DNA of 64,000 nt from Bacteroidales bacterium (GTDB lineage Bacteria > Bacteroidota > Bacteroidia > Bacteroidales > UBA932): NCBI GenBank assembly GCA_017437755.1, contig JAFRXI010000071.1:124001-188000 (forward strand). Reading direction: 5' to 3'. Below are positions 16,522-29,740 of this stretch, piece by piece. The position numbers and the translations under genes are program-made. The notes beneath the pieces were generated by a model. The model was not told the origin of the DNA and searched no databases. It saw only the letters and a list, made by a program, of their open reading frames with translations. Positions within the stretch are counted from its first letter, which is position 1, and every line of letters starts with the position of its first letter.

Positions 16522-17034
16522 CTATTTTCCCTTGTCTGCAAGGATATCTTCCGGACCGGGTATTATCTTGATTTTCATTCCTTTGTAAACGTATGGAAGC
16601 AGCTTCAGCAGGTCTTCGTTAAGCAGCCTTATGCAGCCCTTGCTGTCCCTGGTGCCAATCCTGTCGACCCGTTCCTTGCATGTTCCGTGAATGCCGATGG
16701 TCTTGGATACCGGGGTATTGAAATGGATGAAGAAAGGGCCGTAAGCATCCACCTTTCCGTTTCCGTCGTGGTAGTCGTACTTGATTCCCTTTGTATTCTG
16801 CACCCAGGTAACGGTGAATACCCCTTCAGGGGTCTTGCAGTCACCCTGCTTTGTCTTCTGGCCGGGATTCTCCCCTATCGCCACCGGAAACCGCATCAGG
16901 GAATCACCCTTTTCCGATAGCAGGAACAGGGTGAAGCTTCCCTTGTCGACCAGTATGGAGCACTTTCCCTTAGACTGCGCCGACGAGAAGAAACAACTGA
17001 AAATGAATAGTATTACAAGCGATATCCTTTTCAT
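16522..17034 (-). CDS. L,D-transpeptidase (YkuD family)
   Basis: A 170-residue secreted protein with a signal peptide (MKRISLVILFIFSCFFSSAQ). The YkuD catalytic core is IGIHGTCKERVDRIG ... SRDSKGCIRL-like, with His116 and Cys134 in the order HGT-x(n)-S-x-GCIR. These enzymes attach Braun-type lipoproteins or make 3-3 crosslinks in peptidoglycan, or cleave such bonds; small single-domain forms like this occur widely. Its start overlaps the murI stop as ATGA, implying translational coupling with glutamate racemase, and prfB follows 6 nt after. The role in wall synthesis agrees with murI next door. Confidence 0.88.
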   Translation of the reverse strand: MKRISLVILFIFSCFFSSAQSKGKCSILVDKGSFTLFLLSEKGDSLMRFPVAIGENPGQKTKQGDCKTPEGVFTVTWVQNTKGIKYDYHDGNGKVDAYGPFFIHFNTPVSKTIGIHGTCKERVDRIGTRDSKGCIRLLNEDLLKLLPYVYKGMKIKIIPGPEDILADKGK

Positions 17035-17834
17035 GCGTGCTCGGTTACAAGGGAGAAGAACCTCATCAGTGCCGCCGGGTCGCCCGATGACAGAAGTTCG
17101 ACTTTGGGGTTACGGGGCACCTGGGCGCCGGTCCCTATCCTGGAGAGGGCCTGGGTCGCCGACCTTTCATCAAGGAGCCCGTGCTGTACCATGAGGTATA
17201 TCAGGTGACGCGCGGCAGAAGGCGCCGGATCCAGCACTTCCACGCCCGGACCGGCGACCTTCCTGATAAGGTCCATCAGGAAGGGGTAGTGGGTACATCC
17301 AAGCACTATGGTATCCGCTCCTCCCTCGACCAGAGGGGCTACGGAGGCGCTGACTACAGACTCGGCATCCTGGCCCGTAAGTTCGCCGCTCTCAACCAGT
17401 TCCACAAAACCACGGCCCACCCTTTCCAGGATCCTGACTCCGGTGCCGTACTTCCGCTTGCCGTCGAGGTACTTCTCCGAACGGAGTGTGGCAGCAGTTG
17501 CCAGGACCCCGACCACTCCGCTCCGGGTGGATGCGGCCGCCGGCTTGAGGGCCGGTTCCATCCCCACGAACGGGACTCCGTGGAACTCCTGCCTCAACTG
17601 CTTTATGGCGGCGGCGGTTGCCGTATTGCAGGCCACGACTATGGCCTTGCATCCCTTTGAAAGCAGGAGCGACGTTATTTCCCGGGCCCGGCCGGCAATG
17701 AAATCAGGGGACTTGTCGCCATACGGACAGTTGGCATTATCGGAATAATAGACGTATCCATGTTGGGGAAGAAGCCTTGCGACCTCCCTGAAAACGGACA
17801 TCCCGCCCACACCCGAATCAAACAAACCTATCAT
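17031..17834 (-). CDS. murI: Glutamate racemase
   Basis: A 267-residue enzyme that makes D-glutamate for peptidoglycan. MIGLFDSGVGGMSV carries the conserved Asp-Ser (6-7); the two catalytic cysteines are Cys69 (VACNTATAAA) and Cys180 (VLGCTHYPF); SDNANCPYGDKS matches the substrate loop. Length is normal. The frame continues upstream to 17885 through the neighbour's terminator, so the family N-terminus at 17834 is the start. A -7 element (TATCTTTG, 17841-17848 on the minus strand) ends only 6 nt before the ATG, so the leader must be very short. The gene is coupled to the L,D-transpeptidase by a 4-nt overlap. Confidence 0.95.
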   Translation of the reverse strand: MIGLFDSGVGGMSVFREVARLLPQHGYVYYSDNANCPYGDKSPDFIAGRAREITSLLLSKGCKAIVVACNTATAAAIKQLRQEFHGVPFVGMEPALKPAAASTRSGVVGVLATAATLRSEKYLDGKRKYGTGVRILERVGRGFVELVESGELTGQDAESVVSASVAPLVEGGADTIVLGCTHYPFLMDLIRKVAGPGVEVLDPAPSAARHLIYLMVQHGLLDERSATQALSRIGTGAQVPRNPKVELLSSGDPAALMRFFSLVTEHA

Positions 17835-17840
17835 TATATG

Positions 17841-17870
17841 CAAAGATAACCAAAAAAAACAGGGCCGCAA
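17841..17870 (-). promoter_or_regulatory. Promoter of murI, nested in the preceding terminator
   Basis: On the minus strand TTG (17870-17868, in the loop of the terminator hairpin), a 19-nt spacer and TATCTTTG (17848-17841) match the Bacteroidales promoter. The -7 element ends 6 nt before the murI ATG. Confidence 0.6.
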
Positions 17871-17877
17871 GGCCCTG
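17851..17877 (-). terminator. Rho-independent terminator of the wall-recycling operon
   Basis: Minus strand: CAGGGCC, loop TTGC, GGCCCTG, then TTTTTTTT. It lies about 20 nt after the stop of the DUF6515-like gene, the last gene of the seven-gene operon. Confidence 0.88.
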
Positions 17878-17897
17878 CTTCGCAAGAGTGTGAAAAT

Positions 17898-19304
17898 CTA
17901 ATTGACGTAGCCGTAACGGGAGGCGGTGTTGCCGTACATCTGGCCCAGGACCTCGAGATAAGGCTCTCCGTCCACGAGGGTCGTACGGTAGACCGTATTG
18001 TCAACCCTGTAGTACTCTACGCCATCCATAACGATGGTCTCGTAGTCGTCCGGCAGGGAGGTAACCAGGGCTCCTGCAGGAGGGATGATTACCTGATACT
18101 GGCCGTTTGTCATCGTGTAGAACACGCCGTCCTGGTAATAGTACTGGGACGATGCATAAGCAAAGCTCTGCACGAGTCCGAGCCTGTTGGCCAGTTCATA
18201 GGCGGAAAGGGCGCGGTTGCCGTTCATCGCATAGGATGAATTCTGTGCGGCTATGGTCGCGTTGTTCTGCGCTATGATGCGGTTCTGCTCCGCAATGGTG
18301 TTGTAGTTGTCGAATACGGTATTGTAGGTCCGGTAGACATTGCTGTAGTAAGCAAATCTCACGGAATTGAAGAGTATCGCATCGACCATTCTGTCTACGA
18401 GGGTTCCGAAAGGAGGACGGCACACGAAGTACACTCCCCCATGGAGCCGGTAGTAGATACCGTCGTAGAGATAGTAGTCAATCCCCCAGTGGTGGATCCT
18501 CCTGTACCGGGGCGGCAGGTAGTTGACCCTGTAGCCGTAGTAGTGGGGATGGTCACCGTAGAAGTATCCGGGACGGTCGTAGCTCAGGAAGCCACGGTCG
18601 CGGGGATGTACCCTGCCCAGGTTGCCATGGTCGTCCATGCGGAAGTCGCCGTCGCTGTAGCGGTAATTGCCGCCACGGTCGCGGTAAGTCTCGCGTGGAG
18701 TGTTCCTGGAAGGGGAATTGGCCGCGTTCACGCTGCCGAGACCGGTGCGGGAAACGTTGCTGTTGGAACGGACCGAGCCGTCACGCGAGCTTACCACGTT
18801 TACCGAATTGTTCCTGGCCGCGGAGTGTGAGGTAGCAACCCTGGAGCTTCCGCTGCGGGTGCTCTGCGAGGAGCGTACGCTGCCGGAAGAAGGGCTGGAT
18901 GAACGTACGGACGAAGCGGAGGAAGAGCTCCTGACCGCGGTGCCGCTGCCGTTGCGGACGCTCTGCGAAGAGCTGCCGTTGGAACGGACCGCCGATGAAG
19001 AGGAAGAACTCCTGGTCGACGTGCCGCCGCCGTTGCGGACGCTCTGCGAAGAGCTGCCGCCAGAACGGACAGCCGATGAAGAGGAAGAACTCCTGGTCGA
19101 CGAACTGCCGCCCGAACGTACTGCCGTACCGGAGGACCGGCTTGAAGAAGATGAGCTTCCGGAAGACCTGCTTGAAGAAACAGAGGTTGATCTATTTGAG
19201 GAAGAAGAACTTCCGGAACGTCTCTGTGCACCCATGTCCACGGGGAATGCGGTCATTGTCACTGCTGTGAGGGCAACCGCTGCAATCTGAAATATCCTTC
19301 TCAT
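17898..19304 (-). CDS. Ser/Arg-rich DUF6515-like secreted protein
   Basis: A 468-residue protein with a signal peptide (MRRIFQIAAVALTAVTMTAFPVDMGA). Residues ~28-165 are low-complexity Ser/Arg/Gly repeats around the unit S-S-S-AVRS-x-G-SSS-QSVRNG. Residues ~205-290 are rich in Tyr, Arg, His and Asp (YSDGDFRMDDHG, RPGYFYGDHPHYYGYRVNYLPPRYRRIHHWG). From ~265 come repeated modules of the DUF6515 kind: YYLYDGIYYRLHGGVYF, and later LVTSLPDDYETIVMDGVEYYRVDNTVYR and YYYQDGVFYTMTNGQYQVI. The function is unknown; cell-envelope location is likely. Last gene of the operon starting at 26217, 18 nt after namZ and followed by a strong terminator. The antisense Glu-rich open frame here is a shadow of the Ser/Arg repeats. 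Confidence 0.7.
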   Translation of the reverse strand: MRRIFQIAAVALTAVTMTAFPVDMGAQRRSGSSSSSNRSTSVSSSRSSGSSSSSSRSSGTAVRSGGSSSTRSSSSSSAVRSGGSSSQSVRNGGGTSTRSSSSSSAVRSNGSSSQSVRNGSGTAVRSSSSASSVRSSSPSSGSVRSSQSTRSGSSRVATSHSAARNNSVNVVSSRDGSVRSNSNVSRTGLGSVNAANSPSRNTPRETYRDRGGNYRYSDGDFRMDDHGNLGRVHPRDRGFLSYDRPGYFYGDHPHYYGYRVNYLPPRYRRIHHWGIDYYLYDGIYYRLHGGVYFVCRPPFGTLVDRMVDAILFNSVRFAYYSNVYRTYNTVFDNYNTIAEQNRIIAQNNATIAAQNSSYAMNGNRALSAYELANRLGLVQSFAYASSQYYYQDGVFYTMTNGQYQVIIPPAGALVTSLPDDYETIVMDGVEYYRVDNTVYRTTLVDGEPYLEVLGQMYGNTASRYGYVN

Positions 19305-19322
19305 GACTTTAAGATTTAAAAG

Positions 19323-20588
19323 TTACTTATACAAAAGGTACTTTCTGGAAAGTGTCCTGAAAGCATAGACGTCCTTGTTCCAATAATCGACCATGTCTTC
19401 CACTTTCATGCGCCTTTGAAATGCTGTTCTTACATAATCCGTACCACAAACCTTATCGAACATGGAATTCCTGGAAGTTTGGGCGAATGGATCCTTGTCC
19501 GGATACAGCTCCCTGACCGCCTGCATCACGTAAAACTGAGTGAGTGTGATGCTGGCCCTTTCGTAATTTGTAAAGAAGAATTGGACCCCGTGGAGGAGTT
19601 TTCCCTGCATGGAACCCGCTATGGGTGTGTAGTGAATCGTGCGGAAAGCCGTGCCGGGCAAGGCATAGCTGTCGAGCCTGGCCTTGAGGGCGTCGGCGTC
19701 GATCCATTCCGCAGCAAAAGTCTCGAAGGGGATGGTATACCCCACCCCGATATTGAGGTAATTGTTGAATTCCCCGGCTATACCGGCGCACGGATAGGCG
19801 ATTGCCGAATCCATCGACGGGATGTTGGGCGAAGGAAGCACCCAGGGAAGACGGGTGTCGCGGTAGAGCATATAGCGCCGCCAGCCCTGCATCGGAATTA
19901 CGGTGAGCTTGCATTCCAAGGGGGCGTCCTTCCCCTTTTCGCCGCAGTTGAGCCCCTCGGAATTGATAAGTCTGGCCAGTTCCCCGACCGTGAGGCCATA
20001 GACATAAGGGATGCTGAACTGGCTCACGAACGAATGGAAACCAGGTTCCACCACGCATCCTTCAACCTTAAGGCCTCCGAGGGGATTGGGACGGTCCAGG
20101 ACCACCACTTCTATGCCCTTTTCCGCACAGGCCCTCATGACCAGGCCGAGGGTGCTGATGAACGTATAGGACCTTACCCCCACATCCTGGATATCGTAGA
20201 CCATTACGTCTATGCCCTTGAGCATCTCGGGCGTGGGTTTACGGGTGGAGCCGTAGAGCGAATGCACCGGAAGTCCGGTTGCGGGGTCCCTGCCGTCGGA
20301 AACCTTGCCGCCCGCCCAGACATCTCCCCTGACACCATGTTCTGGTCCGAAAAGCGCCACCAGGTTGACCTCGGGGGCGGAATAGAGGATGTCGATGGTG
20401 GACCGTAGCTTGCGGTCGACCCCGCTGGGATTGGTGACCAGGCCGACCCTCTTGCCTTCAAGCACGGAATAGTGCGACTCGCGAAGCACCTCGATCCCTG
20501 GCTTGACATCGGGACGGTAAAGCAGCTGTGCGCCCGCTCCTATGCAGACGGACAGCAGCAACGCGGAAACTGCGGCTCTCTTTATCAT
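19323..20588 (-). CDS. namZ: Exo-beta-N-acetylmuramidase NamZ-type (DUF1343)
   Basis: A 421-residue protein with a signal peptide ending in GAGA. Family blocks: GKRVGLVTNPSGVDRKLRSTIDILY, LVALFGPEHGVRGD, SLYGSTRKPTPEMLKGIDVMVYDIQDVGVRSYTF (catalytic-pocket region), VLDRPNPLGG, LPWVLPSPNIPSMDSAIAYPCAGIAGE. NamZ enzymes release MurNAc from the non-reducing end of glycan strands (known for the Bacillus enzyme; Bacteroidetes homologues are grouped here by sequence). The substrate pool would be wall fragments in the periplasm. The start is MIKRAAVSALLL at 20588, 1 nt after the ampG stop; the longer frame overlaps ampG. It fits with AmpG and SpoIID neighbours as wall turnover. Confidence 0.85.
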   Translation of the reverse strand: MIKRAAVSALLLSVCIGAGAQLLYRPDVKPGIEVLRESHYSVLEGKRVGLVTNPSGVDRKLRSTIDILYSAPEVNLVALFGPEHGVRGDVWAGGKVSDGRDPATGLPVHSLYGSTRKPTPEMLKGIDVMVYDIQDVGVRSYTFISTLGLVMRACAEKGIEVVVLDRPNPLGGLKVEGCVVEPGFHSFVSQFSIPYVYGLTVGELARLINSEGLNCGEKGKDAPLECKLTVIPMQGWRRYMLYRDTRLPWVLPSPNIPSMDSAIAYPCAGIAGEFNNYLNIGVGYTIPFETFAAEWIDADALKARLDSYALPGTAFRTIHYTPIAGSMQGKLLHGVQFFFTNYERASITLTQFYVMQAVRELYPDKDPFAQTSRNSMFDKVCGTDYVRTAFQRRMKVEDMVDYWNKDVYAFRTLSRKYLLYK

Positions 20589-20589
20589 A

Positions 20590-21846
20590 TCAATCAACCT
20601 TTTTTGCGGCAATCGCGGTTATGCCTACGGAAATGACGCTGCACGCCATGACCAGGATGAAGAATCCGGTATAGCCCATGGCCTCCTGGATCCATCCGGC
20701 GAAGAAACCGGGAATCATCATGCTGAGGGCCATGAATGCGGTGCAGAGGGAATAATGGGAGGTCTTGAATTCGCCCTCGGAGAACCAGATCAGGTAGAGC
20801 AGGTATGCGGTGAATCCGAACCCATAGCCAAACTGGTCCAGGAAGATGCAGCCCGATATTATCCATAGGCTGGAAGGCTGGGCTGCTGCCAAGTATACGT
20901 ATACCAGGCACGGGACGGCAACGCAGCAGGCCATTGGGACGAGGCTCCGGCGGAGTCCCCACCTGGAAGCGGCCATGCCCCCGAGAATGCCTCCAACTGT
21001 AAGTCCTATTATGCCGATGGTGCCGTAGGCAATTCCCACCTGGTCGGTGGAAAGGGCAAGTCCCCCCTGGGCGGCCCCGTCCAGCATGAACGGGCTCAAC
21101 ATCTTGATGCTCAATGCTTCAGGCAGGCGGAAAAGAAGCATGAACAGCAGCGCCAGGAATATATTCCGCTTTGTGAAGAATGTGGCGAAGGTCCGGCCGA
21201 ACTCCCGGAAAATGTCCCCGGCGGTACGGGCGTCGCGGGGAGAATCGTCCGACGGGCGAGGCATTACGTAAACATGGTACAGCGTTATTGCAAAAAGCAG
21301 TACGGCCGATGCCGACAGCGTGATCCTCCATGCCATGGGTACGTTGCCGAGCCGTTTTTCCAGCAACCCGGCCACAAACACCAGGACTCCCTGTCCGAAT
21401 ACCGACGAGAGCCTGTAGAACGTGCTCCTGATCCCCACGAAAAAAGCCTGGCTGGTGGAGTCCAGGGCCAGCATGTAGAAGCCGTCGGCGGCGATGTCGT
21501 GGGTTGCGGAGGCAAAGGCGGCGATCCAGAACAGCGCCAGGGTAAGTCCGAAGCCGTTTGGCGAAACGCTGAGTGCGATTGCGGCAAAACCGGCCGACAT
21601 CAATCCCTGCATCCACAGAATCCATCTTCTCTTGGTGCCGATAATGTCCACGAAAGGGCTCCAGAACGGCTTTATCACCCACGGCAGATACAGCAGGCTG
21701 GTGAGCGCGGCTATGCGTCCGTTGCTCATGCCCAGGTTCTTGAACATTATCACCGATATGGTGTTGACCAGAAAATACGGAATCCCCTCCGCAAAATAAA
21801 GCGTAGGGATCCAAAGCCATGGAGTTTTTGTCTTACTTTCCTTCAT
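20590..21846 (-). CDS. ampG: AmpG-like muropeptide permease (MFS)
   Basis: A 418-residue inner-membrane protein with about 12 hydrophobic segments. TPWLWIPTLYFAEGIPYFLVNTISVIMFKNLGMSNGRIAALTSLLYLPWVIKPFWSPFVDIIGTKRRWI matches AmpG: the EGIP motif and the WxxKPxWSPxxD motif are characteristic. In other bacteria AmpG imports GlcNAc-anhydroMurNAc peptides for recycling. In Bacteroidetes, AmpG homologues near NamZ are thought to take up muramyl saccharides; the precise cargo here is inference. The gene overlaps the DUF4922-SpoIID gene by 14 nt and abuts namZ by 1 nt. Confidence 0.88.
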   Translation of the reverse strand: MKESKTKTPWLWIPTLYFAEGIPYFLVNTISVIMFKNLGMSNGRIAALTSLLYLPWVIKPFWSPFVDIIGTKRRWILWMQGLMSAGFAAIALSVSPNGFGLTLALFWIAAFASATHDIAADGFYMLALDSTSQAFFVGIRSTFYRLSSVFGQGVLVFVAGLLEKRLGNVPMAWRITLSASAVLLFAITLYHVYVMPRPSDDSPRDARTAGDIFREFGRTFATFFTKRNIFLALLFMLLFRLPEALSIKMLSPFMLDGAAQGGLALSTDQVGIAYGTIGIIGLTVGGILGGMAASRWGLRRSLVPMACCVAVPCLVYVYLAAAQPSSLWIISGCIFLDQFGYGFGFTAYLLYLIWFSEGEFKTSHYSLCTAFMALSMMIPGFFAGWIQEAMGYTGFFILVMACSVISVGITAIAAKKVD

Positions 21847-24061
21847 AAATCCCAGCTCCCGGATAATAGTGCCCGAGAATCTCCCTGTACGATGCCCCGT
21901 GGGCGGCCATGTTCGCAGCCCCTATCTGGCAGAGTCCGACCCCGTGTCCCCATCCAGACCCGCGGAATATGACACGGTGGTCCTTGAATTCAATGTCAAA
22001 GGCCGAGCTCTTAAGGTGTGACCGCGACAGGAAACGCCTGATTATAAGCTCCTTGCCAATATCCATAGTGAGTTTCGTCCCCACTATCCTGAGTTTCTTT
22101 ATCCGCCCTGACACACCCCTTTCCAGCGGAACGAGGTCCAGTATCGTCCCAAAATCCATCCCGGAACGCTCCTTCAGGATTCCGGACAGTTCGTCCACCC
22201 CGTATTCAACCGTCCAGCGGTAGAAATCCCTGGTCTCCAGGTCGTAATCGTTAAGGACCTTGGAGAGGACTGAGTTGTCGGAAGTATTGCACCACGGGTC
22301 GTCGACCTCGGCAAGATACGGATAGTCGATATCTTCCCAGCAGGTTGAAAAGAGTTCGGTCTTTCCTCCGCAGCATTTTGAGAAACGGGCGTCGCATATC
22401 TTTCCGCCATAGGTCAGGACCTCGCCCCAGGTAAGGTCCACAGCCTTCCGGACATTCTCCCCCACCGCCATGGTCAGCCCCTGATAGCGCTGGCAATGGT
22501 CGTCGGCACAGACGTCGAACAGCTTGTGGTCGTCATGGTCGAACCAGCGGACATATTCCCTTACCAGCCCATCCGGTTTTTCCTTTGGCCCGGAGGACGA
22601 ATCCAGATACGTGACCAGTTCCGGTACATTGTTGAAGGATGGACCCGCGGGGGCGCACCTGCCTGCCTTGCGGGATTCTATCTGGGCCATTACCCACGAC
22701 CGGGAAATCACGGCATGCGCCTTGAGGAATTCCAGGTCGGAGGTGGATTTCATCTCGGAAGAAATGACGCTCAGAAGATAGTCCTCCACACCTATAACGT
22801 TGATTGCCCGGACTTTGCCGTTTTCCACAATGAACTTGAGGGTTCCTGCAAAAACAAGGTCGCGCTTCCTTTCCCAATGGAAGTCGATTCCGATATTAAC
22901 CCCGTGAAGTATGAACGAGGGCTCGGCGAACAGGGTCGACCTGGTGGCGGCCTCGAAATAGAGTTCGTCGTATAGGGCCCCGTTGTAGTCCAGCTTGCCT
23001 TCCCGGAAAGACACCATCTGGGGACCGGCCCCGTCGGAAACCACCTCGAACGTTATCCTGTCAGAGAGCATTATGCCCACTTCCAGCTTGGGCTGAGTCC
23101 GGGTGAGGCGCCATAGTATCATCCTCTCATCTTCCTCGTTTACAGATACTTCCGATAGGATTTCCCGTATTATGGAAGGATTGATCCTGCGATAATCATC
23201 CTCGAAGGGAAGTACCATGTAGCCGGCCATGTCGGTGCAACCGGGGCTGATGGTAAGACGGTCCTCCCCCCTGGAATAGAAATGGTGCGGCCTGTGCGCG
23301 GCCCTTGCTGTGACGATTGCACGGTACACTTCGCCGGTGGACCAGGCCATTACGTTGAAACGCGGCTCGGACTCGCCTTCCGGGGTGTTCATGCAGTCCA
23401 GAAGGCGGTAAAAGAGTTTTGCCATGGACTTTGCCGTCCTGGCCTCAAGGACGAAAATCCCCCTTGAGAAGCGCCGGAAATGCCAGAGCGAGGCATCCCT
23501 CACCGTGGTGACGTGCTCCATACCGGATGCGCCCCCCCCGGAGGAGGAAAGCAGCCTGTCCACCGTCCTCTCCAGGGGAAGATAGCCCCTGGGGCACGCC
23601 TGGAAATGCAGATGGTCGGGAGCGGAGGCGCCGCAGTGGGGACCGTTGTACATTATCACATAGCCCTCCAGATGGCGCGTCATGTCCAGAAGGTCGGTAA
23701 AACGGTGCCAGATAGACTGGTCGCCATGGGTCTCGGCGCTGATGACCAGGTGACGCTGGAAAATGGGATAGCGGTTCACCAGGATGTCGTACCGGCGCCC
23801 CTTCCGGCCCTCCGCCTTGAGGGACGTCTGTTCCTGGGGGCGCCCAGACTCACACAGGAAGCAGGGCCTGGCCCCTACCGAGGCCTTGTCGGTCCTTGCC
23901 GCAGTGGAAACGATCCTCTGGGGATTATGCTGAAGCGTGACCAGGATCCCGTCCACCTCCACCTGTCTTACCGGGACGCTGCGGAGCAGGCGGTAGTTCC
24001 TGGCCGCAACCGGCCAGACGGACAACTGGTCAAGGATGAATTTGTCGATATCCTTTATCAT
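21833..24061 (-). CDS. DUF4922 (HIT-like nucleotidyltransferase fold) - SpoIID/LytB fusion protein
   Basis: A 742-residue fusion. Residues 1-~300: DUF4922, related to GDP-sugar/Ap4A phosphorylases of the HIT superfamily. The active-site H-x-H-x-Q motif is at 150-154 (DHLHFQACPRG), and a CFLC pair (67-70) could bind zinc. Residues ~385-742: SpoIID/LytB domain; SVISSEMKS holds the catalytic-type Glu436, LKAHAVISRSW follows, and the C-terminal SGWGHGVGLCQIGAANMAAHGASYREILGHYYPG is the classic SpoIID ending. SpoIID cuts naked glycan strands as a lytic transglycosylase. There is no signal peptide, so the cut would be on imported material in the cytosol, unless secretion is non-classical. Its ATG overlaps the Nudix stop (ATGA) and its end overlaps ampG by 14 nt. 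Confidence 0.8.
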   Translation of the reverse strand: MIKDIDKFILDQLSVWPVAARNYRLLRSVPVRQVEVDGILVTLQHNPQRIVSTAARTDKASVGARPCFLCESGRPQEQTSLKAEGRKGRRYDILVNRYPIFQRHLVISAETHGDQSIWHRFTDLLDMTRHLEGYVIMYNGPHCGASAPDHLHFQACPRGYLPLERTVDRLLSSSGGGASGMEHVTTVRDASLWHFRRFSRGIFVLEARTAKSMAKLFYRLLDCMNTPEGESEPRFNVMAWSTGEVYRAIVTARAAHRPHHFYSRGEDRLTISPGCTDMAGYMVLPFEDDYRRINPSIIREILSEVSVNEEDERMILWRLTRTQPKLEVGIMLSDRITFEVVSDGAGPQMVSFREGKLDYNGALYDELYFEAATRSTLFAEPSFILHGVNIGIDFHWERKRDLVFAGTLKFIVENGKVRAINVIGVEDYLLSVISSEMKSTSDLEFLKAHAVISRSWVMAQIESRKAGRCAPAGPSFNNVPELVTYLDSSSGPKEKPDGLVREYVRWFDHDDHKLFDVCADDHCQRYQGLTMAVGENVRKAVDLTWGEVLTYGGKICDARFSKCCGGKTELFSTCWEDIDYPYLAEVDDPWCNTSDNSVLSKVLNDYDLETRDFYRWTVEYGVDELSGILKERSGMDFGTILDLVPLERGVSGRIKKLRIVGTKLTMDIGKELIIRRFLSRSHLKSSAFDIEFKDHRVIFRGSGWGHGVGLCQIGAANMAAHGASYREILGHYYPGAGIYEGK

Positions 24062-24648
24062 AGAAGGGCTTCCAGGGAGGACCGTATCTTCCTGAACTCC
24101 TCTTCAAAGTTAGGTGTAAATAACGACTTCCCCAAATTATCTTCAATTTCCTGCATAGGAATGTACTTCCCTTCAGGGACTTCGTCGTTATGTGGCTCCA
24201 GCGGGAAGTTCCCGACCGTCGCGAACATGCATACCATCTCACGCTCAGTGGAGGATTCCCAGACATAGTTTCCGAGGAACACCGGATTGAACGAAGTGAA
24301 CCCGAGTTCTTCTTCCGCCTCTCTGAAAAGCGCCTCCTCAATGCCCTCACCGTAGGAAACATGCCCTCCGACGGCGGTATCCCACCATCCGGGGAATAGG
24401 TCCTTGGAGAGGGAACGGCGCTGGACGAAAAGACGCGAATCCCTGTCCACAATATGCAGATGCACAACCGGATGGAGCAGGTTGGACCCGCCATGGCAAT
24501 AGCTCCGCGCCGCCTGTCCCACAACCAGCCCGCTGGGCTCGATTATCGGGAACATTTCCACATCGGGTGCCGGCGGAACGGCCCGGGTCCCTGCCTGGGG
24601 ACGAGGCAGCACAGGTGCCGGATATGGAGGATAGAAGAGTTCGTACAT
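24058..24648 (-). CDS. Nudix hydrolase (IDI-like/YfcD-like)
   Basis: A 196-residue cytosolic enzyme. The Nudix box spans residues 95-117 (GHVSYGEGIEEALFREAEEELGF), a perfect G-x5-E-x7-R-E-U-x-E-E-x-G-U. The preceding segment LFVQRRSLSKDLFPGWWDTAVGG is typical of the isopentenyl-diphosphate-isomerase-like/YfcD subgroup with unknown pyrophosphate substrate. The N-terminal ~55 residues are a short extra arm of unclear role. The open frame begins at 24696, but that would overlap the thioesterase gene by 40 nt; ATG 24648 is 7 nt after its stop and is chosen. Coupled by ATGA to the DUF4922-SpoIID gene: a nucleotide-processing pair is plausible but unproven. Confidence 0.85.
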   Translation of the reverse strand: MYELFYPPYPAPVLPRPQAGTRAVPPAPDVEMFPIIEPSGLVVGQAARSYCHGGSNLLHPVVHLHIVDRDSRLFVQRRSLSKDLFPGWWDTAVGGHVSYGEGIEEALFREAEEELGFTSFNPVFLGNYVWESSTEREMVCMFATVGNFPLEPHNDEVPEGKYIPMQEIEDNLGKSLFTPNFEEEFRKIRSSLEALL

Positions 24649-24655
24649 ATGTCCG

Positions 24656-25423
24656 TCAGTAATCGATCCGGGCGGTGAAAACGGTCTTTCCGTCAACCTT
24701 TCCCTCGATTATGTATGATACCGTGCCGTCGTCGCCCCTGCTGCAATGACGGAAAAGGTCCACCGATTCGCCGGCGACGGTTTCTTTGCTGAAATTGATA
24801 TACACATCCCTCACCCTGCGCCCTGATGTTTCAGCATAGGGTATGCAGTCCATGGACCAGACCATGTACCTGGCATTGTTGGAATGACCGAGGAAGTCCA
24901 CGTCGGAATATGCAACAGTATGGCTTGCAATCAGTTCCGGCTCCACTTCCCTGGGCATGGAGACTTTAGGTGCAGGCTCTTCGATGGCATGGCCGGCGCC
25001 GGCCGTACCGTAATCGAACTTGGCGACAATCTCGGGATCCCTTACCAGGCGGCGGCTCTCCACATCCATCACCAGCCATGAACTGGTACCGGTGATTACA
25101 GTATTCCCGGATGCGTCGTCCAGGCGGAAATCCCTCAGGAAGAAGAGCCCGTCGGAACCCTTGTGCCATGTGTTCAGGCGTACTTCGTCCCTCCAGCGGG
25201 GAGGATTGATGTAGTGGAAATGCATCCGTGAAAGAACCCAGGCAGTGTGGGTCTGTTGAAGGTCGTCATACCCGAAACCAAGGTCCTGAGCCGCCCACAT
25301 CGCTATTTCCTGGGCCATGTCCATGAAGGAAGCAGGCTTGAGGTATTTTGAGGAGTCGGTATAATAGCAAAGGATCCTGAGGTCCTCGTAAAAGAGGTTT
25401 CCCTCTCTTTTTACTTCATTCAT
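24656..25423 (-). CDS. Acyl-ACP thioesterase
   Basis: A 255-residue two-hotdog protein. The first half, YTDSSKYLKPASFMDMAQEIAMWAAQDLGFGYDDLQQTHTAWVLSRMHFHYINPPRWRDEV, matches FatA/FatB-like bacterial acyl-ACP thioesterases; the second half has VAYSDVDFLGHSNNARYMVWSMDCIP, where Asp, Asn and His fit the catalytic network. It releases free fatty acids from acyl-ACP at the end of fatty-acid synthesis in the cytosol. Two nt separate it from the HU-like gene upstream and 7 nt from the Nudix gene, so it is the second gene of the seven-gene operon. A role in wall recycling is not obvious; it may simply share the promoter. Confidence 0.88.
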   Translation of the reverse strand: MNEVKREGNLFYEDLRILCYYTDSSKYLKPASFMDMAQEIAMWAAQDLGFGYDDLQQTHTAWVLSRMHFHYINPPRWRDEVRLNTWHKGSDGLFFLRDFRLDDASGNTVITGTSSWLVMDVESRRLVRDPEIVAKFDYGTAGAGHAIEEPAPKVSMPREVEPELIASHTVAYSDVDFLGHSNNARYMVWSMDCIPYAETSGRRVRDVYINFSKETVAGESVDLFRHCSRGDDGTVSYIIEGKVDGKTVFTARIDY

Positions 25424-25425
25424 TC

Positions 25426-26217
25426 CTATTGATTTACAGGGGTTTTGAGGATTTGGAGTTCCTCGGGGGTATAAAGGACGGAATCGGCCCAGTCCGGGAA
25501 CAGCCTTGCGGCCGCCACGAAGACGATAAGGGCAAGGACCGCTGCGGCCGCCAGCGAGAACAATGCCACCAGGAAGGTCCTCCAGAAACTTTTCCCCGGG
25601 ACCGGCTGTCCGGTGACAGGTTCCGGGGCCACCCCGGGTTCAGGCACATCCGGTGCCGCTTTGGGTTCAGGCACATCCGGGACCGCGTCCGGCAACGGTT
25701 CCGCGGGGGCCTCCTCCGAGGAAGGTTCAGCGACGGTTCCGGAAATGATTCCGGACAGGCCCTGCAGGGCAGCGGAAACCTCTTCCGGAGTTTCCACATG
25801 GGTCTTCATCGACACCGGTCCGAGTCCTATCCCTTCCGGATAGATGTCCAGGTCTTCGTCGGAGATGAAGAAGAAGTTGTTCTCCCTGGTTGCCCTGAGC
25901 CGCCCCAGGCCCGGCATGGGAACCGTCTTCCTGGAACGCAGGACTTCCTTGAGGCCCGTCATGAAATCTTCCAGGCCATGAAGTGCCTTTTCCTTGGAAA
26001 TCAAGGCGTTGGCGCTATACAGGTCGACAAGGAGGGTGTCATTTCCGAGCCGCTGGGTAAAGAAAAGCCGCCGGTAGGGAGGATTGATGGTATATCCCCT
26101 GTCGGCAAATGACGCCGGGACCAGTTCGGCCACGAAGGTACCCAGAAGAGGGAGCGTAACCTCATCGTTGTCCATGATGAGGTCCTTTACCATTTTCGAC
26201 AGAAGATCAATATCCAT
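25426..26217 (-). CDS. HU/CCDC81-like domain protein with C-terminal membrane segment
   Basis: A 263-residue protein. Residues 1-~130 resemble the bacterial CCDC81-type HU-like domain: KMVKDLIMDNDEVTLPLLGTFVAEL, then YTINPPYRRLFFTQR, and a second half KEVLRSRKTVPMPGLGRLRATRENNFFF. Residues ~160-215 are a Pro/Glu/Val-rich linker with repeated PDVPEP units, and ~222-246 a hydrophobic membrane span. Relatives in Bacteroidales commonly end in a SPOR domain (HU-CCDC81-SPOR), which binds denuded peptidoglycan; here only a short tail follows the membrane span, so the SPOR part is missing. Possible role in envelope organisation, inferred from family. First gene of the operon; TACCTTTG (26240-26247) lies 22 nt upstream. 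An upstream in-frame extension (to 26304) is rejected. Confidence 0.7.
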   Translation of the reverse strand: MDIDLLSKMVKDLIMDNDEVTLPLLGTFVAELVPASFADRGYTINPPYRRLFFTQRLGNDTLLVDLYSANALISKEKALHGLEDFMTGLKEVLRSRKTVPMPGLGRLRATRENNFFFISDEDLDIYPEGIGLGPVSMKTHVETPEEVSAALQGLSGIISGTVAEPSSEEAPAEPLPDAVPDVPEPKAAPDVPEPGVAPEPVTGQPVPGKSFWRTFLVALFSLAAAAVLALIVFVAAARLFPDWADSVLYTPEELQILKTPVNQ

Positions 26218-26239
26218 GTTGTTTCCCTTTTGGCGTTTG

Positions 26240-26247
26240 CAAAGGTA
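26240..26247 (-). promoter_or_regulatory. -7 element (TACCTTTG) of the seven-gene operon
   Basis: Minus strand TACCTTTG matches TAnnTTTG, 22 nt before the ATG at 26217. The -33 element is not clear. Confidence 0.55.
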
Positions 26248-26270
26248 ATGAAAAAAATCAGCAAAAAATA

Positions 26271-26301
26271 TTTGCATTATCGGAAAAAGGTTGTACCTTT
26301 G
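26271..26301 (+). promoter_or_regulatory. Promoter of the tRNA-Asn gene
   Basis: TTTG at 26271-26274, a 19-nt spacer and TACCTTTG at 26294-26301: a full match to the Bacteroidales consensus, 28 nt before the mature tRNA. Confidence 0.8.
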
Positions 26302-26329
26302 CAATCCGCGAACGAAAAGCGGAAAACAT

Positions 26330-26403
26330 TCCTCAGTAGCTCAGTTGGTTAGAGCACCTGACTGTTAATCAGGGGGTCCTAGGTTCAAGTCCTAGCTGGG
26401 GAG
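26330..26403 (+). tRNA. tRNA-Asn (GTT)
   Basis: A 74-nt cloverleaf: acceptor TCCTCAG paired with CTGGGGA; D-arm with AGCTCAGTTGGTTAGAGC; anticodon stem CCTGA/TCAGG around loop CTGTTAA with anticodon GTT; T-arm CCTAG-GTTCAAGT-CTAGG. The 3' end reads GCA rather than CCA, so CCA is probably added after transcription, as is usual in Bacteroidetes. Own promoter upstream and terminator downstream. Confidence 0.97.
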
Positions 26404-26410
26404 CAGGATC

Positions 26411-26450
26411 GGACAAATTGCAGTTTTGGGCAGTTTGTCCGTTTTTTTTT
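26411..26450 (+). terminator. Rho-independent terminator after tRNA-Asn
   Basis: An 11-bp stem, GGACAAATTGC with GCAGTTTGTCC (one G-T pair), around an 8-nt loop, followed by a nine-T run. Confidence 0.92.
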
Positions 26451-26466
26451 ACGGGAAAGCAGAGAC

Positions 26467-27627
26467 ATGAAAGTTTTATTCGTAATCAACAATTTCTACC
26501 TCAGGGGAAACGGCCTGTGCGCATCGGCAAGGAGGACCGTTCATTATTTAAAGGAAGCAGGAGTGGACGTCCGCGTCCTGTCAGGCCGGAACAAGGACCC
26601 GGAGGGGCCACAGCCGGAGTATCCCCTCGATGACCTCAACCTGCCATTTGTCAACGGATTGGTGGAAGCACAGGGGTATCAGTTCGCCTCCACCGACAAG
26701 GAGACTATCCGCGCAGCGGTGGACTGGGCCGACCTCGTGCATCTGGAAGAGCCCATGGTCCTGGAGGCCAGGACTGCCATTTATGCAAGGAAGACAGGCA
26801 AAGCCATCACCGGAACCTATCACCTGCATCCTGAGAACATGTATGCATCCGTGGGATTGGATTATTCCAAAGCAATCAACTGGGCTACCCTCAACCTTTG
26901 GAGGGACCTTATTTTCAACTACTGCTCCCACATACAGTGCCCCACGCAGAACGTTCTTGACCGGCTTAAGAGGCACAGGTTCAAGGCTACCCTCCACCTT
27001 ATTTCTAACGGAATCATTCCCGACCCGGTCCGTTCCACGGCCATGAGGGATCCGGACGACAAGTCCTTCCGCATAGTAAACATAGGCCGCCTCTCCAACG
27101 AGAAGGACCAGATGACGCTTTTGAAGGCCGTGTCATATTCCGGTCATTCCAGGGACCTGCGGCTGATATTTGCCGGGAAGGGGCCTGAAGAGGAGGCTTA
27201 CCGGAAGAAAGCGGCCGAACTCGTGGAGAAAGGCACCCTCCGCTATCCTCCCGAATTCGTATTCCTTGATTCACAGGGACTTAAGGACCTTGCCCATACG
27301 GCAGACCTCTTTGTGCACTGTGCCTATATAGAAGTGGAGGGCCTGTCATGCCTTGAGTCGCTCAGGGAAGGTGTAGTGCCCCTGATTGCCAGGGGGAAAT
27401 ACTCCGCAACGTCCCAGTTCGCACTGGACCACCACAGCACCTTCCCGGCAAAGGACCCTAAGGCACTGGCAAGGAAGATCGACTGGTGGATAGAGCATCC
27501 TGAGAGGCGGATGCAGATGGCGCCCCGCTACGCAGCCCTTGCCGCGGAATACGACATCCACAAGTCCATCGACGCCCTTGTGGACATGTTCCAGAAAGCT
27601 ATCGGGGAGCAGAATCCGCATTCCTGA
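26467..27627 (+). CDS. GT4-family glycosyltransferase
   Basis: A 386-residue GT-B glycosyltransferase. The N-terminal half starts MKVLFVINNFYLRGNGLCASARRTVHYLKEAGVDV, a short Rossmann strand-helix start. The C-terminal donor domain has FRIVNIGRLSNEKDQMTLLKAV, LIFAGKGPEEE, and AYIEVEGLSCLESLREGVVPL, where E-x7-E is the GT4 donor-binding motif. Close relatives include lipid glucosyl/galactosyl transferases (for diacylglycerol glycolipids), but the acceptor is not clear. A standalone gene between the tRNA terminator and the convergent CDF gene; the 3' ends overlap by 29 nt. Confidence 0.83.
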   Translation: MKVLFVINNFYLRGNGLCASARRTVHYLKEAGVDVRVLSGRNKDPEGPQPEYPLDDLNLPFVNGLVEAQGYQFASTDKETIRAAVDWADLVHLEEPMVLEARTAIYARKTGKAITGTYHLHPENMYASVGLDYSKAINWATLNLWRDLIFNYCSHIQCPTQNVLDRLKRHRFKATLHLISNGIIPDPVRSTAMRDPDDKSFRIVNIGRLSNEKDQMTLLKAVSYSGHSRDLRLIFAGKGPEEEAYRKKAAELVEKGTLRYPPEFVFLDSQGLKDLAHTADLFVHCAYIEVEGLSCLESLREGVVPLIARGKYSATSQFALDHHSTFPAKDPKALARKIDWWIEHPERRMQMAPRYAALAAEYDIHKSIDALVDMFQKAIGEQNPHS

Positions 27628-28519
27628 CCGGGCGGTGCGGCTCCATGTGGATGATGATATGGGTGCTTTTGCCAAAGCGCTCCCGGAGCCTGTCCTCAGC
27701 CATGGTGGCCCTGAGATGAGCCTGTTCCAGGGGCATCCCTCCATCCATCCGGATGTGCACCTCGATGGCTATCCTGTTCCCGATGCGGCGGGTCCTGAGA
27801 TTGTGGGGCTCGGATAAGGCCGGATCGGAAAGGAGTATTTCAACTATCTCTTTTTCAGTTTCTTCCGGGAGAGAACCTTCGGTCAGTTCCGAGATTCCAG
27901 GCCAGATCAGGTCCCAGGCCACCTTGACCAGCATGGCCCCTACCACGATCGAGGCAAGGGGATCGAGTACGGTCCACCTGTTTCCAAGCAGGATGGCGCC
28001 TCCGATTCCCACGGCCGCTCCCACGGAGGAAAGGGCGTCGGAACGGTGGTGCCACGCATTGGCCTTGAGCGCCGATGATTCCAGCTTCCGCCCCTTTGCG
28101 GCAGTATACTGATACATCACCTCCTTGATCACGATGGAAAAGAGTGCCGCCACCAATGCAAGTTTTCCCGGAGCGGGCAGCTGCTCTCCTCCAAGCCATG
28201 CGGCGAACTTTACCGACCCGGATACGACTATCCCGATGGCAGCGGCCGCCAGGGCCATTCCGATGAACAGGCTTGCCACCGTCTCGAACTTTCCGTGTCC
28301 GTAATCGTGGCTCTCGTCCTCCGGCCGGGCACTTATGCCCACAAAGACAAGTACGACTATATCCGTCACAAAGTCCGACAGGGAATGCACCGCATCGGCA
28401 ATCATGGCCTGGCTGTGGCCTACTATTCCGCACACGAACTTGAAAGCCAGCAGGAGAAGATTCCCGAAACTGCCCCAAAGCGTGACCCTGTATATCCCCT
28501 TTTCCCGAGATTGTTCCAT
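27599..28519 (-). CDS. Cation diffusion facilitator (zinc/divalent-metal exporter), first of pair
   Basis: A 306-residue inner-membrane protein with about six membrane spans. The metal site of CDF proteins is visible as ADAVHSLSDFVTD (H-x-x-x-D in helix 2) and WHHRSDALSSVG (H-x-x-x-D in helix 5). The C-terminal cytosolic domain starts near residue 215 and has LRTRRIGNRIAIEVHIRMDG, a typical regulatory fold. It exports Zn2+ or another divalent ion. The second CDF gene is 19 nt upstream in the same direction, so the two are probably cotranscribed. Specificity not decidable. Confidence 0.88.
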   Translation of the reverse strand: MEQSREKGIYRVTLWGSFGNLLLLAFKFVCGIVGHSQAMIADAVHSLSDFVTDIVVLVFVGISARPEDESHDYGHGKFETVASLFIGMALAAAAIGIVVSGSVKFAAWLGGEQLPAPGKLALVAALFSIVIKEVMYQYTAAKGRKLESSALKANAWHHRSDALSSVGAAVGIGGAILLGNRWTVLDPLASIVVGAMLVKVAWDLIWPGISELTEGSLPEETEKEIVEILLSDPALSEPHNLRTRRIGNRIAIEVHIRMDGGMPLEQAHLRATMAEDRLRERFGKSTHIIIHMEPHRPVRNADSAPR

Positions 28520-28538
28520 TGTATTACGCCCCCGCTAT

Positions 28539-29642
28539 TTACTCGCTGTAATTGTGGTCGATTACGACGGTCACCTTCATATCGGGGACCAAAGCCTGTA
28601 TCTCGTCCGTAAGCCGGATGGAAAGGAAGGCATCGTCGTGACATGAGATGTCGGGCACCACATCCACGGAAAGCATGCGGTCTTTCTCCGAACAATAGAA
28701 TCCATGGACCTGGACGATCTCCTTATGGGTGGCCAGGGCCTTTGTCACCCTGGACTGAAGGTCGGCCCGCTGGTTTTCTCCGGTTGCAACGGCATAGATT
28801 CCCACCGTCATGATGATTCCGTGCCGCTCGAACATCAGCGTGGAGAGCCTGCGGGTCAGGCCATGGATTTCGTGCGCCGACATAGAGTCCAGGACACTGA
28901 TATGCAACGAGCCTATCATCACGTCGGGCCCGTAGTTGTGCAGGATTATGTCAAACACTCCCCTGACGCCGTCAACTTCCATAATCTCCCTCTTGATTTC
29001 CTTGATGAGGTCGGGCGACACCCGCGCCCCAAGCAGCTCATTTACAGGAGTTGAGAGCATCTCGATGCCTGCCTTGATGATCACGGCGGAGATCAGTGCA
29101 CCGAGTATGCCGTCCAGCGAAATGCCCCAGATCAGCATGATGCCGGCCGAAACAAGGGTAGCCGCAGTGATGACGGCATCGAACAGGGCGTCCGACCCGG
29201 AAGCCGTCAGGGCATCGCTCTTCAGCTGTTTGCCTTTCTGCCTGACATACCATCCCAGCAGGAGCTTGACCACGATGGCCACTATTATTACGATGAGTGC
29301 AGGAATGGTATAACTCGGTTCCGTGGGTTCTATGATTTTCTTCACCGACTCGATAAGCGAGGTTATGCCGGCCGACAATACGATTACTGCGATGATGATT
29401 GCGCTGAAGTACTCGATGCGTCCAAAGCCAAAAGGGTGCTCGCGGTCTGCCGGACGCTGCGACAGCTTGGTACCGATGATGGTGATGACGCTTGAGAGGG
29501 CGTCGCTCAGGTTGTTCACCGCATCCATGACGACGGCCACGCTGCCGGCGATGATGCCTGTCACAGCCTTGAATGCTGCCAGCAGCACATTTGCGACTAT
29601 CCCGATTATACTTGTGCGTATGATTTGAGTACTCCGGTCCAT
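28539..29642 (-). CDS. Cation diffusion facilitator, second of pair
   Basis: A 367-residue CDF transporter with about six membrane helices. Metal-site motifs are VVMDAVNNLSDALSS in helix 2 and TASGSDALFDAVITA in helix 5: the second helix has N-x-x-x-D instead of H-x-x-x-D and the fifth D-x-x-x-D, unlike the neighbour, and closer to Mn/Fe-type CDFs. The C-terminal domain is long (residues ~215-367) with GSLHISVLDSMSAHEIHGLTRRL. The frame is open to 29738, but ATG at 29642 with TATCTTTG 22 nt upstream (29665-29672) is preferred. The two adjacent CDFs may handle different metals (inference). Confidence 0.85.
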   Translation of the reverse strand: MDRSTQIIRTSIIGIVANVLLAAFKAVTGIIAGSVAVVMDAVNNLSDALSSVITIIGTKLSQRPADREHPFGFGRIEYFSAIIIAVIVLSAGITSLIESVKKIIEPTEPSYTIPALIVIIVAIVVKLLLGWYVRQKGKQLKSDALTASGSDALFDAVITAATLVSAGIMLIWGISLDGILGALISAVIIKAGIEMLSTPVNELLGARVSPDLIKEIKREIMEVDGVRGVFDIILHNYGPDVMIGSLHISVLDSMSAHEIHGLTRRLSTLMFERHGIIMTVGIYAVATGENQRADLQSRVTKALATHKEIVQVHGFYCSEKDRMLSVDVVPDISCHDDAFLSIRLTDEIQALVPDMKVTVVIDHNYSE

Positions 29643-29664
29643 AGCAGAATCCGATTTATTTTTG

Positions 29665-29672
29665 CAAAGATA
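29665..29672 (-). promoter_or_regulatory. -7 element (TATCTTTG) before the CDF pair
   Basis: Minus strand TATCTTTG matches TAnnTTTG, 22 nt before the ATG at 29642. It lies just inside the palindromic repeat at 29698. Confidence 0.55.
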
Positions 29673-29697
29673 CAAAAAAGAGGGATGAACATATGAA

Positions 29698-29740
29698 AAG
29701 TGCTTCCAACGTCCAAAAAACATGGACGTTGGAAGCACTT
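29698..29740. repeat. Palindromic repeat, copy A (17-bp perfect arms)
   Basis: Arms 29698-29714 and 29724-29740 are exact reverse complements (AAGTGCTTCCAACGTCC), spaced by 9 nt. Flank TTAAGGAGTGTTTAT follows. A second copy lies at 49924-49958 with TGCGTCCAACGTCC arms, which keep pairing by compensating changes. This copy sits 30 nt past the stop of the GLUG gene, so it may also end transcription of the PUL. Confidence 0.9.

Follow-up and report, generated by a model that had tools for sequence, protein, structure and literature searches.

A DUF4922–SpoIID fusion encoded beside AmpG as a candidate cytosolic enzyme of peptidoglycan-sugar salvage in a Bacteroidales bacterium

What might a protein that joins a HIT-like nucleotidyl enzyme to a SpoIID domain do, and on which side of the membrane? 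The question is raised by a gene on the reverse strand (21833..24061) of the 64,000-nucleotide stretch of Bacteroidales DNA that was analysed, referred to here as the window. The gene is a single unbroken frame of 742 codons encoding a protein of 742 aa, in which a DUF4922 domain (PF16269; residues 9–156, 23594..24037, reverse strand; Pfam E 9e-53) precedes a SpoIID part (residues 316–742, 21836..23116, reverse strand) that corresponds to the entire stand-alone SpoIID proteins of relatives. An earlier, sequence-only reading had proposed a fusion of a HIT-type enzyme with SpoIID, and this single frame with its two Pfam assignments bears it out. Fused frames were found at 57 other loci (between L032 and L131), which rules out a one-off fusion or an assembly join; 46 of them are full length, the SpoIID part is truncated in 6, and another 5 are cut off by the end of their contig. 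The fusion of DUF4922 (HIT-like) with SpoIID is real. The same reading had proposed looking in other taxa for the two domains as adjacent separate genes, and where they are separate they lie side by side in 30 of 39 loci.

Genes concerned with cell-wall sugars adjoin the fusion. Downstream on the same strand is a gene for an AmpG-like muropeptide transporter (20590..21846, reverse strand), whose ORF shares 14 bases with the fusion gene, followed by one for a NamZ-type exo-beta-N-acetylmuramidase with a hydrophobic N-terminus (19323..20612, reverse strand; Pfam NamZ_N E 3e-86, NamZ_C E 4e-36). As listed, the NamZ ORF shares 23 bases with ampG, and its true start may lie further in. Upstream, a NUDIX hydrolase gene (24058..24696, reverse strand) overlaps the fusion gene by 4 bases; a NUDIX gene also lies near the fusion in locus L032 of the same genus and is a candidate functional link only. 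In relatives, the cluster comprises GT2, DUF4922, SpoIID, AmpG, NamZ and often MurT–MurK–MurQ. The window has SpoIID followed by AmpG and NamZ, as in the T. forsythia-type operon; MurT, MurK and MurQ, which adjoin the module in several relatives, are absent within the window, and the GT2 orthologue of this genome lies on another contig (G000:C15:74414-75724) rather than directly upstream of the fusion. Among loci with enough flanking sequence, AmpG lies at most 4 kb downstream of 40 of 42 intact fusions (L035 and L036 being the two without it) and of 33 of 35 separate DUF4922 genes. These neighbour counts, like the co-loss, export and 99-row conservation counts below, leave out L039, which comes from the same genome as L117; L075 and L097, both cut by contig ends, were dropped from the counts for separate DUF4922 genes and from the co-loss pair test. 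In neighbourhoods from outside the order, SpoIID occurs without DUF4922 or AmpG in 8 of 14. A promoter and terminator scan of positions 19000–26600 gave no more matches than shuffled sequence.

To which compartment the protein belongs is suggested by its N-terminus. The frame measured from stop to stop is 756 aa, so at most 14 further N-terminal residues are possible, and the most hydrophobic 11-residue stretch within residues 1–70 has a mean of 1.2 on the Kyte–Doolittle scale. No export-type N-terminus was found in 58 fused frames or in 41 DUF4922-only frames, and 1 of 35 SpoIID-only frames rose above the threshold; the NamZ proteins of the same loci, used as a positive control, have one in 70 of 72 cases (frames open at the contig start were left out throughout). 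A missed signal peptide or an upstream start, the objection that the sequence-only reading had itself foreseen, was rejected on the basis of the frame length, the low N-terminal hydrophobicity and the same picture in relatives, and its statement that no signal peptide is visible holds. These observations point to a cytosolic location of the fusion.

Both halves retain conserved motifs of their families. The SpoIID domain matches the Pfam profile (PF08486) at residues 414–551 (E 6e-21; 75.2 bits against a cut-off of 23) and the NCBIfam model SpoIID_LytB (TIGR02669; 1e-50, 173.2 bits against 83.3), the latter match reaching residue 738. In the alignment, Glu436 (22754..22756, reverse strand) is the counterpart of Glu101, the catalytic residue of C. 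difficile SpoIID (PMC6221140), and is present in 82 of the 82 full-length rows that remained after removal of five contig-cut and six truncated rows. The stretch containing H512, C518, H522 and C523 (22493..22528, reverse strand) corresponds to the zinc ligands H134, C140, H145 and C146 of the same C. difficile protein (PMC6221140), and these residues are kept in 82, 82, 81 and 82 of the 82 rows, respectively. At the C-terminal end, the GHGVGLCQ motif (residues 705–712, 21926..21949, reverse strand) has H706, G709, C711 and Q712 in every full-length row (82/82).

The DUF4922 profile scores 178.5 bits on the fusion against a cut-off of 23.6. Both cysteines of its CxxC motif (CFLC, residues 67–70, 23852..23863, reverse strand) occur in 99 of 99 rows, as do H150, H152 and Q154 of the HIT motif HLHFQ (residues 150–154, 23600..23614, reverse strand), although most of these loci were chosen by a motif containing the histidines themselves; in rows picked without use of the HIT motif, the three residues are present in 19 of 19. 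The four motifs and residues listed in the sequence-only reading (CxxC, HLHFQ, Glu436 and GHGVGLCQ) are thus where it placed them, and the loss of His or Glu residues in most homologues that would have told against it is not seen. In alignment, HLHFQ falls on the corresponding motif of yeast Ap4A phosphorylase 2, and the half gives a sequence profile match to Apa2 (E 4e-8), a faint one to GalT that spans the motif (hhalign probability 9.5%) and none to HinT. The label of Ap4A phosphorylase was rejected, the Ap4A_phos_N score of 19.1 bits being below the cut-off of 23.1. We take the HxHxQ motif here to be of the transferase/phosphorylase type of the HIT superfamily rather than the hydrolase type, with His152 as the presumed nucleophile. 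Judged from its sequence, the earlier HIT-type label can be refined to DUF4922 with an HxHxQ motif.

A third protein belongs to this setting. GT2 is fused to DUF4922 in L184 and L185, and to DUF4922 and SpoIID together in L178; it keeps a DxD motif and has no membrane span. Only 19 of 39 fused loci have it upstream, and one genome (G295) has an intact fusion and AmpG and lacks GT2. Across 178 genomes, the cytosolic SpoIID is present in 40, DUF4922 in 39 and orthologous AmpG in 39, the latter two sets each being a subset of the 40; the threshold for AmpG orthologues (E <1e-140) was set after the gap to the paralogues (best 1.7e-126) had been seen. One genome (G111) has AmpG at the paralogue level only, and another (G096) has SpoIID and AmpG and lacks both DUF4922 and GT2. 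All 5 genomes in which only a decayed SpoIID half remains lack AmpG, and all 11 with an intact copy have it, as assessed in 16 of the 80 genomes behind L052–L131 (six with truncated copies and ten selected ones with an intact copy). The decayed lineages retain DUF4922 without AmpG, intact SpoIID or GT2. In L071 and L073, one deletion could account for the joint loss, and the co-loss with AmpG comprises only two well-supported independent pairs and is not significant.

Because the protein has no export signal and its gene lies beside that of a cell-wall-sugar importer, the fusion probably processes imported wall pieces inside the cell, and its placement in the AmpG/wall-sugar pathway is well supported. 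We propose, with a probability of about 0.5, that this two-domain protein is a cytosolic enzyme for the salvage of peptidoglycan sugars and processes AmpG-imported GlcNAc-(anh)MurNAc. We infer its location, its substrates, the order of steps, the ring opening and the reactions as follows. Outside the cytosol, exported enzymes including NamZ would cut wall glycan, and AmpG would carry GlcNAc-MurNAc and GlcNAc-anhydroMurNAc inward; the AmpG of T. forsythia is described in excerpts of PMC7670621 as importing GlcNAc-MurNAc and GlcNAc-anhMurNAc, mainly disaccharides without peptides. In the cytosol, the SpoIID domain would use its Glu436 and zinc site to act on the MurNAc end, most likely by admitting water to the 1,6-anhydro ring so that it opens, a hydrolytic version of lytic-transglycosylase chemistry, or by hydrolysing short oligomers, and so might do the job done by AnmK elsewhere. 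The excerpts of SpoIID literature examined contain no earlier case of a SpoIID opening such a ring. The DUF4922 domain would form a nucleotidyl-His152 intermediate and act on a nucleotide sugar, most obviously UDP-GlcNAc or UDP-MurNAc, by phosphorolysis or nucleotidyl transfer, and the soluble GT2 glycosyltransferase would often take part. MurNAc could subsequently pass to MurK/MurQ or to UDP-MurNAc.

The distribution of AnmK bears on this proposal. AnmK is found in 12 of 74 genomes with the module (defined by best E <1e-40, our own threshold) versus 187 of 221 other genomes, a split that largely follows clades, and the available text of PMC7670621 gives it as not predicted in T. forsythia. 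The 12 genomes that have both AnmK and the module come from 10 families and include Bacteroides ihuae (G165), and SpoIID as a strict replacement of AnmK was therefore rejected. An export-type N-terminus is present on every NagZ-type match in 22 genomes. A tentative extension of the salvage reading is that peptidoglycan sugars would be recycled in the cytosol by a third route that needs neither NagZ nor AnmK, in which a non-exported SpoIID would be an anhydro-muramyl hydrolase, running lytic-transglycosylase chemistry backwards with water, and GT2 and DUF4922 would split GlcNAc-MurNAc by nucleotide-dependent phosphorolysis. GT2 in reverse would move the sugar to a nucleotide and the HIT enzyme would then free the sugar-1-phosphate, retaining the bond energy as GlcNAc-1-phosphate.

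It is also conceivable, if unlikely, that the cytosolic SpoIID cuts MurNAc-GlcNAc bonds of imported oligosaccharides of at least four sugars, with DUF4922 acting on a later metabolite. The intact catalytic and zinc residues, the linkage to AmpG and the muramidase activity of a chlamydial SpoIID on denuded glycan (PMC6635528, in part) agree with this. However, the cargo of T. forsythia AmpG, mainly peptide-free disaccharides, contains no MurNAc-GlcNAc bond (PMC7670621, in part), and the lytic products would be anhMurNAc, yet AnmK is missing in 62 of the 74 module genomes. A related option in the sequence-only reading, SpoIID acting on imported naked glycans in the cytosol, is supported as to imported sugars and the cytosol (no export-type N-terminus in 58 fused frames); the published AmpG cargo consists of disaccharides and not of naked strands. 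A SpoIID part that only binds muropeptides, sensing them or activating an amidase and steering the HIT enzyme, would be in keeping with the amidase enhancers named in the SpoIID/LytB family (PMC5388701, in part); we consider it improbable, as binding alone would not need Glu436 and zinc ligands kept in 82 of 82 rows (81 for one ligand). We give similarly little credence to the idea that a glycan or glycosyl precursor is made and trimmed in the cytosol by GT2, DUF4922 and SpoIID, with AmpG and the MurNAc genes merely supplying sugar: GT2 with its DxD motif and no membrane span would suit such a role, and the operon was earlier described as glycosylation related (as mentioned in PMC5388701, in part), but the cluster has no recurring flippase, polymerase or other gene for glycan assembly, and the distribution tracks AmpG. 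An unknown export route, which would let SpoIID work on denuded glycan of the wall in the periplasm like the signal-peptide-bearing or membrane-located SpoIIDs described in parts of PMC6635528 and PMC6221140, is very improbable and, as an option of the sequence-only reading, unsupported: none of the 58 fused and none of the 41 DUF4922-only frames has an export-type N-terminus, whereas 70 of 72 NamZ proteins do, and some genomes fuse DUF4922 to a GT2 bearing a DxD motif of the nucleotide-sugar type.

The salvage reading addresses a gap in T. forsythia, where the processing of AmpG-imported wall disaccharides is stated to be an open question (PMC7670621, in part). Three candidate proteins for that processing come from one conserved cluster and are fused to one another in different genomes, and two of them track AmpG across the 178 genomes. 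If the SpoIID domain opens anhydroMurNAc, a well-known fold would turn out to have a new activity, one that could account for recycling wherever the module occurs without AnmK (62 of 74 genomes). Beyond the sequence-only reading lie the AmpG/NamZ/MurT–MurK–MurQ setting, the partnership and fusions with GT2, the joint loss with AmpG and the cargo published for AmpG. Among the best matches in the open-licence literature (titles and abstract openings), we found no account of a cytosolic SpoIID or of DUF4922 in recycling.

The closest known system is the MurNAc/muropeptide operon of T. forsythia (Tanf_08345-08385), which in the available part of PMC5388701 comprises a xanthan lyase-like gene, a glycosyltransferase, a second 'glycosyltransferase', lytB (SpoIID), ampG, ybbC (NamZ), murT, murK and murQ. 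Its gene order is that of the relatives of the window's bacterium, from which we infer that Tanf_08355 is DUF4922; unlike in the window, that operon encodes SpoIID separately from its upstream neighbour. The NagZ/AnmK recycling of E. coli shares GlcNAc-anhMurNAc delivered by AmpG as cargo (PMC7670621, in part), whereas here AnmK is missing from most module genomes and no NagZ-type protein without an export-type N-terminus was found among the matches of the 22 genomes. With the SpoIID lytic transglycosylases of sporulating bacteria and chlamydiae (PDB 4rwr, 5i1t, 5txu; PMC6221140 and PMC6635528, in part), the fusion shares sequence similarity, the catalytic Glu and the zinc ligands. In contrast to them, it has no signal peptide or anchor, which sets it outside the exported kind though within the family by sequence, and it carries about 100 extra residues ahead of the domain and is joined to, or encoded beside, DUF4922. 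Finally, the DUF4922 half resembles the Apa2 and GalT/GDP-sugar phosphorylase branch of HIT proteins in its HxHxQ-type motif and its profile match to Apa2, but differs in forming a Pfam family of its own that is tied to wall-sugar genes.

The DUF4922–SpoIID fusion occupies one open frame of 742 codons (21833-24061, minus strand), in which Pfam places the HIT-like DUF4922 domain at residues 9–156 and SpoIID at residues 414–551, and the NCBIfam SpoIID_LytB match extends to residue 738. The fusion noticed in the sequence-only reading is thereby confirmed, and every residue quoted there was found at its place. The interpretation offered with it, a plausibly active fusion whose SpoIID part cuts imported glycans in the cytosol or which is exported whole by an undescribed route, is supported in part, with the cytosolic option faring better. 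Upstream of the start, the frame holds 14 further codons, too few for a signal peptide, which excludes one arising from an earlier start. N-terminal hydrophobicity was also scored against a threshold, with the frames of NamZ (exo-β-N-acetylmuramidase) from the same loci as a control. The threshold was reached by 70 of the 72 control frames, by 0 of 58 fused and 0 of 41 DUF4922-only frames, and by 1 of 35 SpoIID-only and 7 of 68 GT2 frames. Separate SpoIID frames mostly start where the domain starts, and in 11 of 14 loci elsewhere in the phylum the match begins no more than 15 residues into the frame. These N-terminal data therefore define a SpoIID branch without export signals, which was found at E < 1e-30 in 45 of 345 genomes sampled from the phylum, including 42 from beyond the order.

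The catalytic residues of this branch are retained. Glu436 aligns with residue 101 of the solved C. difficile SpoIID (5txu), and H512, C518, H522 and C523 align with residues 134, 140, 145 and 146. According to PMC6221140, E101 of that enzyme is catalytic, H134, C140, H145 and C146 bind zinc, and E101, C140 and H145 are required for activity in vitro. Among 82 full-length relatives (47 fused and 35 separate), Glu436, H512, C518 and C523 are conserved in all and H522 in 81.

In the DUF4922 part, Cys67, Cys70, His104, His112, His150, His152 and Gln154 are present in 99 of 99 aligned rows, although the conservation of H150 and H152 is circular for loci L052–L131, which were picked by the motif GASAPDHxH; all seven residues are conserved in the 19 rows not picked in this way. 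A DUF4922 profile hits yeast Ap4A phosphorylase 2 (E 4e-8) across the HxHxQ motif, which we take to be of the transferase/phosphorylase type. The substrate of DUF4922 is probably a nucleotide or a nucleotide sugar.

In the window, the fusion frame shares 14 bases with the gene for the muropeptide transporter AmpG, and ampG shares 23 with namZ (frame as listed). The common order in relatives is GT2, DUF4922, SpoIID, AmpG and NamZ, in many cases with MurT-, MurK- and MurQ-type genes after them. Where flanking sequence suffices, the 4 kb downstream contain AmpG for 40 of the 42 fusions that are intact, for 33 of 35 stand-alone DUF4922 genes and for 25 of 30 stand-alone SpoIID genes, and for none of the 4 truncated fusions. 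GT2 is found upstream in 33 of 34 loci with a separate DUF4922 gene versus 19 of 39 with an intact fusion. SpoIID adjoins the separate DUF4922 gene in 30 of 39 cases.

Several other features were seen in these neighbourhoods. Downstream of the cluster on the same strand, a YkuD L,D-transpeptidase and an Asp/Glu-racemase-type gene (16522-17885, minus strand) are possible wall genes. The window also carries two tandem cation-efflux genes of the zinc-transporter type (27599-29738, minus strand) and its sole detected tRNA gene, tRNA-Asn (gtt) (26330-26404, plus strand), followed by a terminator-like hairpin (26410-26441). In Bacteroides ihuae, a 955-residue FAD-linked oxidase with an iron-sulfur/CCG part (L039:12343-15207), with relatives in loci L040 and L050, sits between NamZ and MurT. 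Some relatives of AmpG (L048:10037-11911, L047:4803-6662 and L045:8772-10643) contain a mid-transporter insertion of about 185 residues that, by alignment, is absent from the window's AmpG.

Among 178 genomes of the order, 40 encode the cytosolic SpoIID, 39 DUF4922 and 39 an orthologue-level AmpG, and the latter two sets each fall within the 40; genome G111 lacks the AmpG orthologue and G096 lacks DUF4922. The best AmpG match in G111, G087 and G142 is a lower-scoring AmpG-type protein. Six fusions have lost the C-terminal half of SpoIID; in every one of them three or more of the four zinc ligands are gone, and in five Glu436 is gone as well. With assembly completeness left aside, none of the 5 genomes with a truncated copy only gave an AmpG match, versus all 11 genomes in which the copy is intact; on the DUF4922 tree the truncations amount to three changes, giving two well-supported independent pairs, too few for significance. 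Two shortened fusions (L071:1643-3073 and L073:428-1846) stand in window-like surroundings, with HU-like or NUDIX, DUF6515-like and racemase-like genes, and AmpG and NamZ are gone; set against the gene order of the window, a single deletion could account for the loss of the SpoIID end and its neighbours. Loci L084 and L089 have NamZ nearby and no AmpG.

Explaining the fused and separate states takes three changes across 97 rows of the DUF4922-domain tree, gains and losses not being distinguished. GT2 is joined to DUF4922 in G059 (L184:3171-5660) and G139 (L185:3359-5887), with SpoIID as a separate gene. In G126, a genome of the same family as the window, one frame of 1006 codons that reaches the contig end (L178:982-3999) combines GT2 and DUF4922 with the beginning of SpoIID; a second contig of G126 opens with the remainder of a SpoIID (L179:3-518), followed by AmpG and NamZ. 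GT2 retains a DxD motif (QLDSDD), and no membrane span was found in 18 sequences (top 19-residue mean 1.48). In the window's genome it sits on a different contig. Among 32 genomes tested at E < 1e-20, GT2 was found in 17 of 18 with cytosolic SpoIID and in none of the 8 that lack it. Nor was it found in any of the six genomes G295–G300, of which G295, with AmpG and an intact fusion, is a counter-example.

The enzymes of the known cytosolic route were also sought. AnmK occurs in 12 of 74 module-positive genomes (P0001 match at best E < 1e-40; one AnmK match partial) versus 187 of 221 others (Fisher p 8e-27, kinship ignored), and clade structure accounts for much of this pattern. Nor is the exclusion strict, because the 12 genomes with both are spread over 10 families. 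A search with E. coli NagZ covered 23 genomes, of which 16 carry the module, 3 have a decayed version and 4 lack it. Matches turned up in 22, and in every one of these the best match has an export-type N-terminus; for the window's genome and for that of its genus-mate the match is weak.

The simplest reading is that AmpG would import disaccharides into the cytosol, where SpoIID and DUF4922, often with GT2, would process them, because SpoIID and DUF4922 lack export signals, travel with AmpG and fuse with each other, and because the usual cytosolic tools that were sought, AnmK and a NagZ without an export-type N-terminus, were mostly not found. GlcNAc-anhMurNAc offers SpoIID no MurNAc-GlcNAc bond; it contains the anhydro bond that SpoIID's own chemistry produces. 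PMC6635528 describes mostly non-anhydro products of a chlamydial SpoIID on denuded glycan, so water can serve as the acceptor. The step we favour, tentatively and with the odds somewhat against it when taken alone, is that SpoIID would open this anhydro ring. DUF4922 persists in lineages without AmpG, intact SpoIID or GT2, which points to a step after the initial attack on the AmpG cargo, or to a second role.

The module order in relatives is that of the T. forsythia transcription unit Tanf_08345-08385, as given in PMC5388701, and by gene order Tanf_08355 would be DUF4922. PMC7670621 reports that T. forsythia AmpG takes up GlcNAc-MurNAc and GlcNAc-anhMurNAc, predicts no AnmK orthologue and treats the fate of the imported fragments as an open question. 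The fusion described here joins a non-exported SpoIID to a HIT-type enzyme within a known type of operon.
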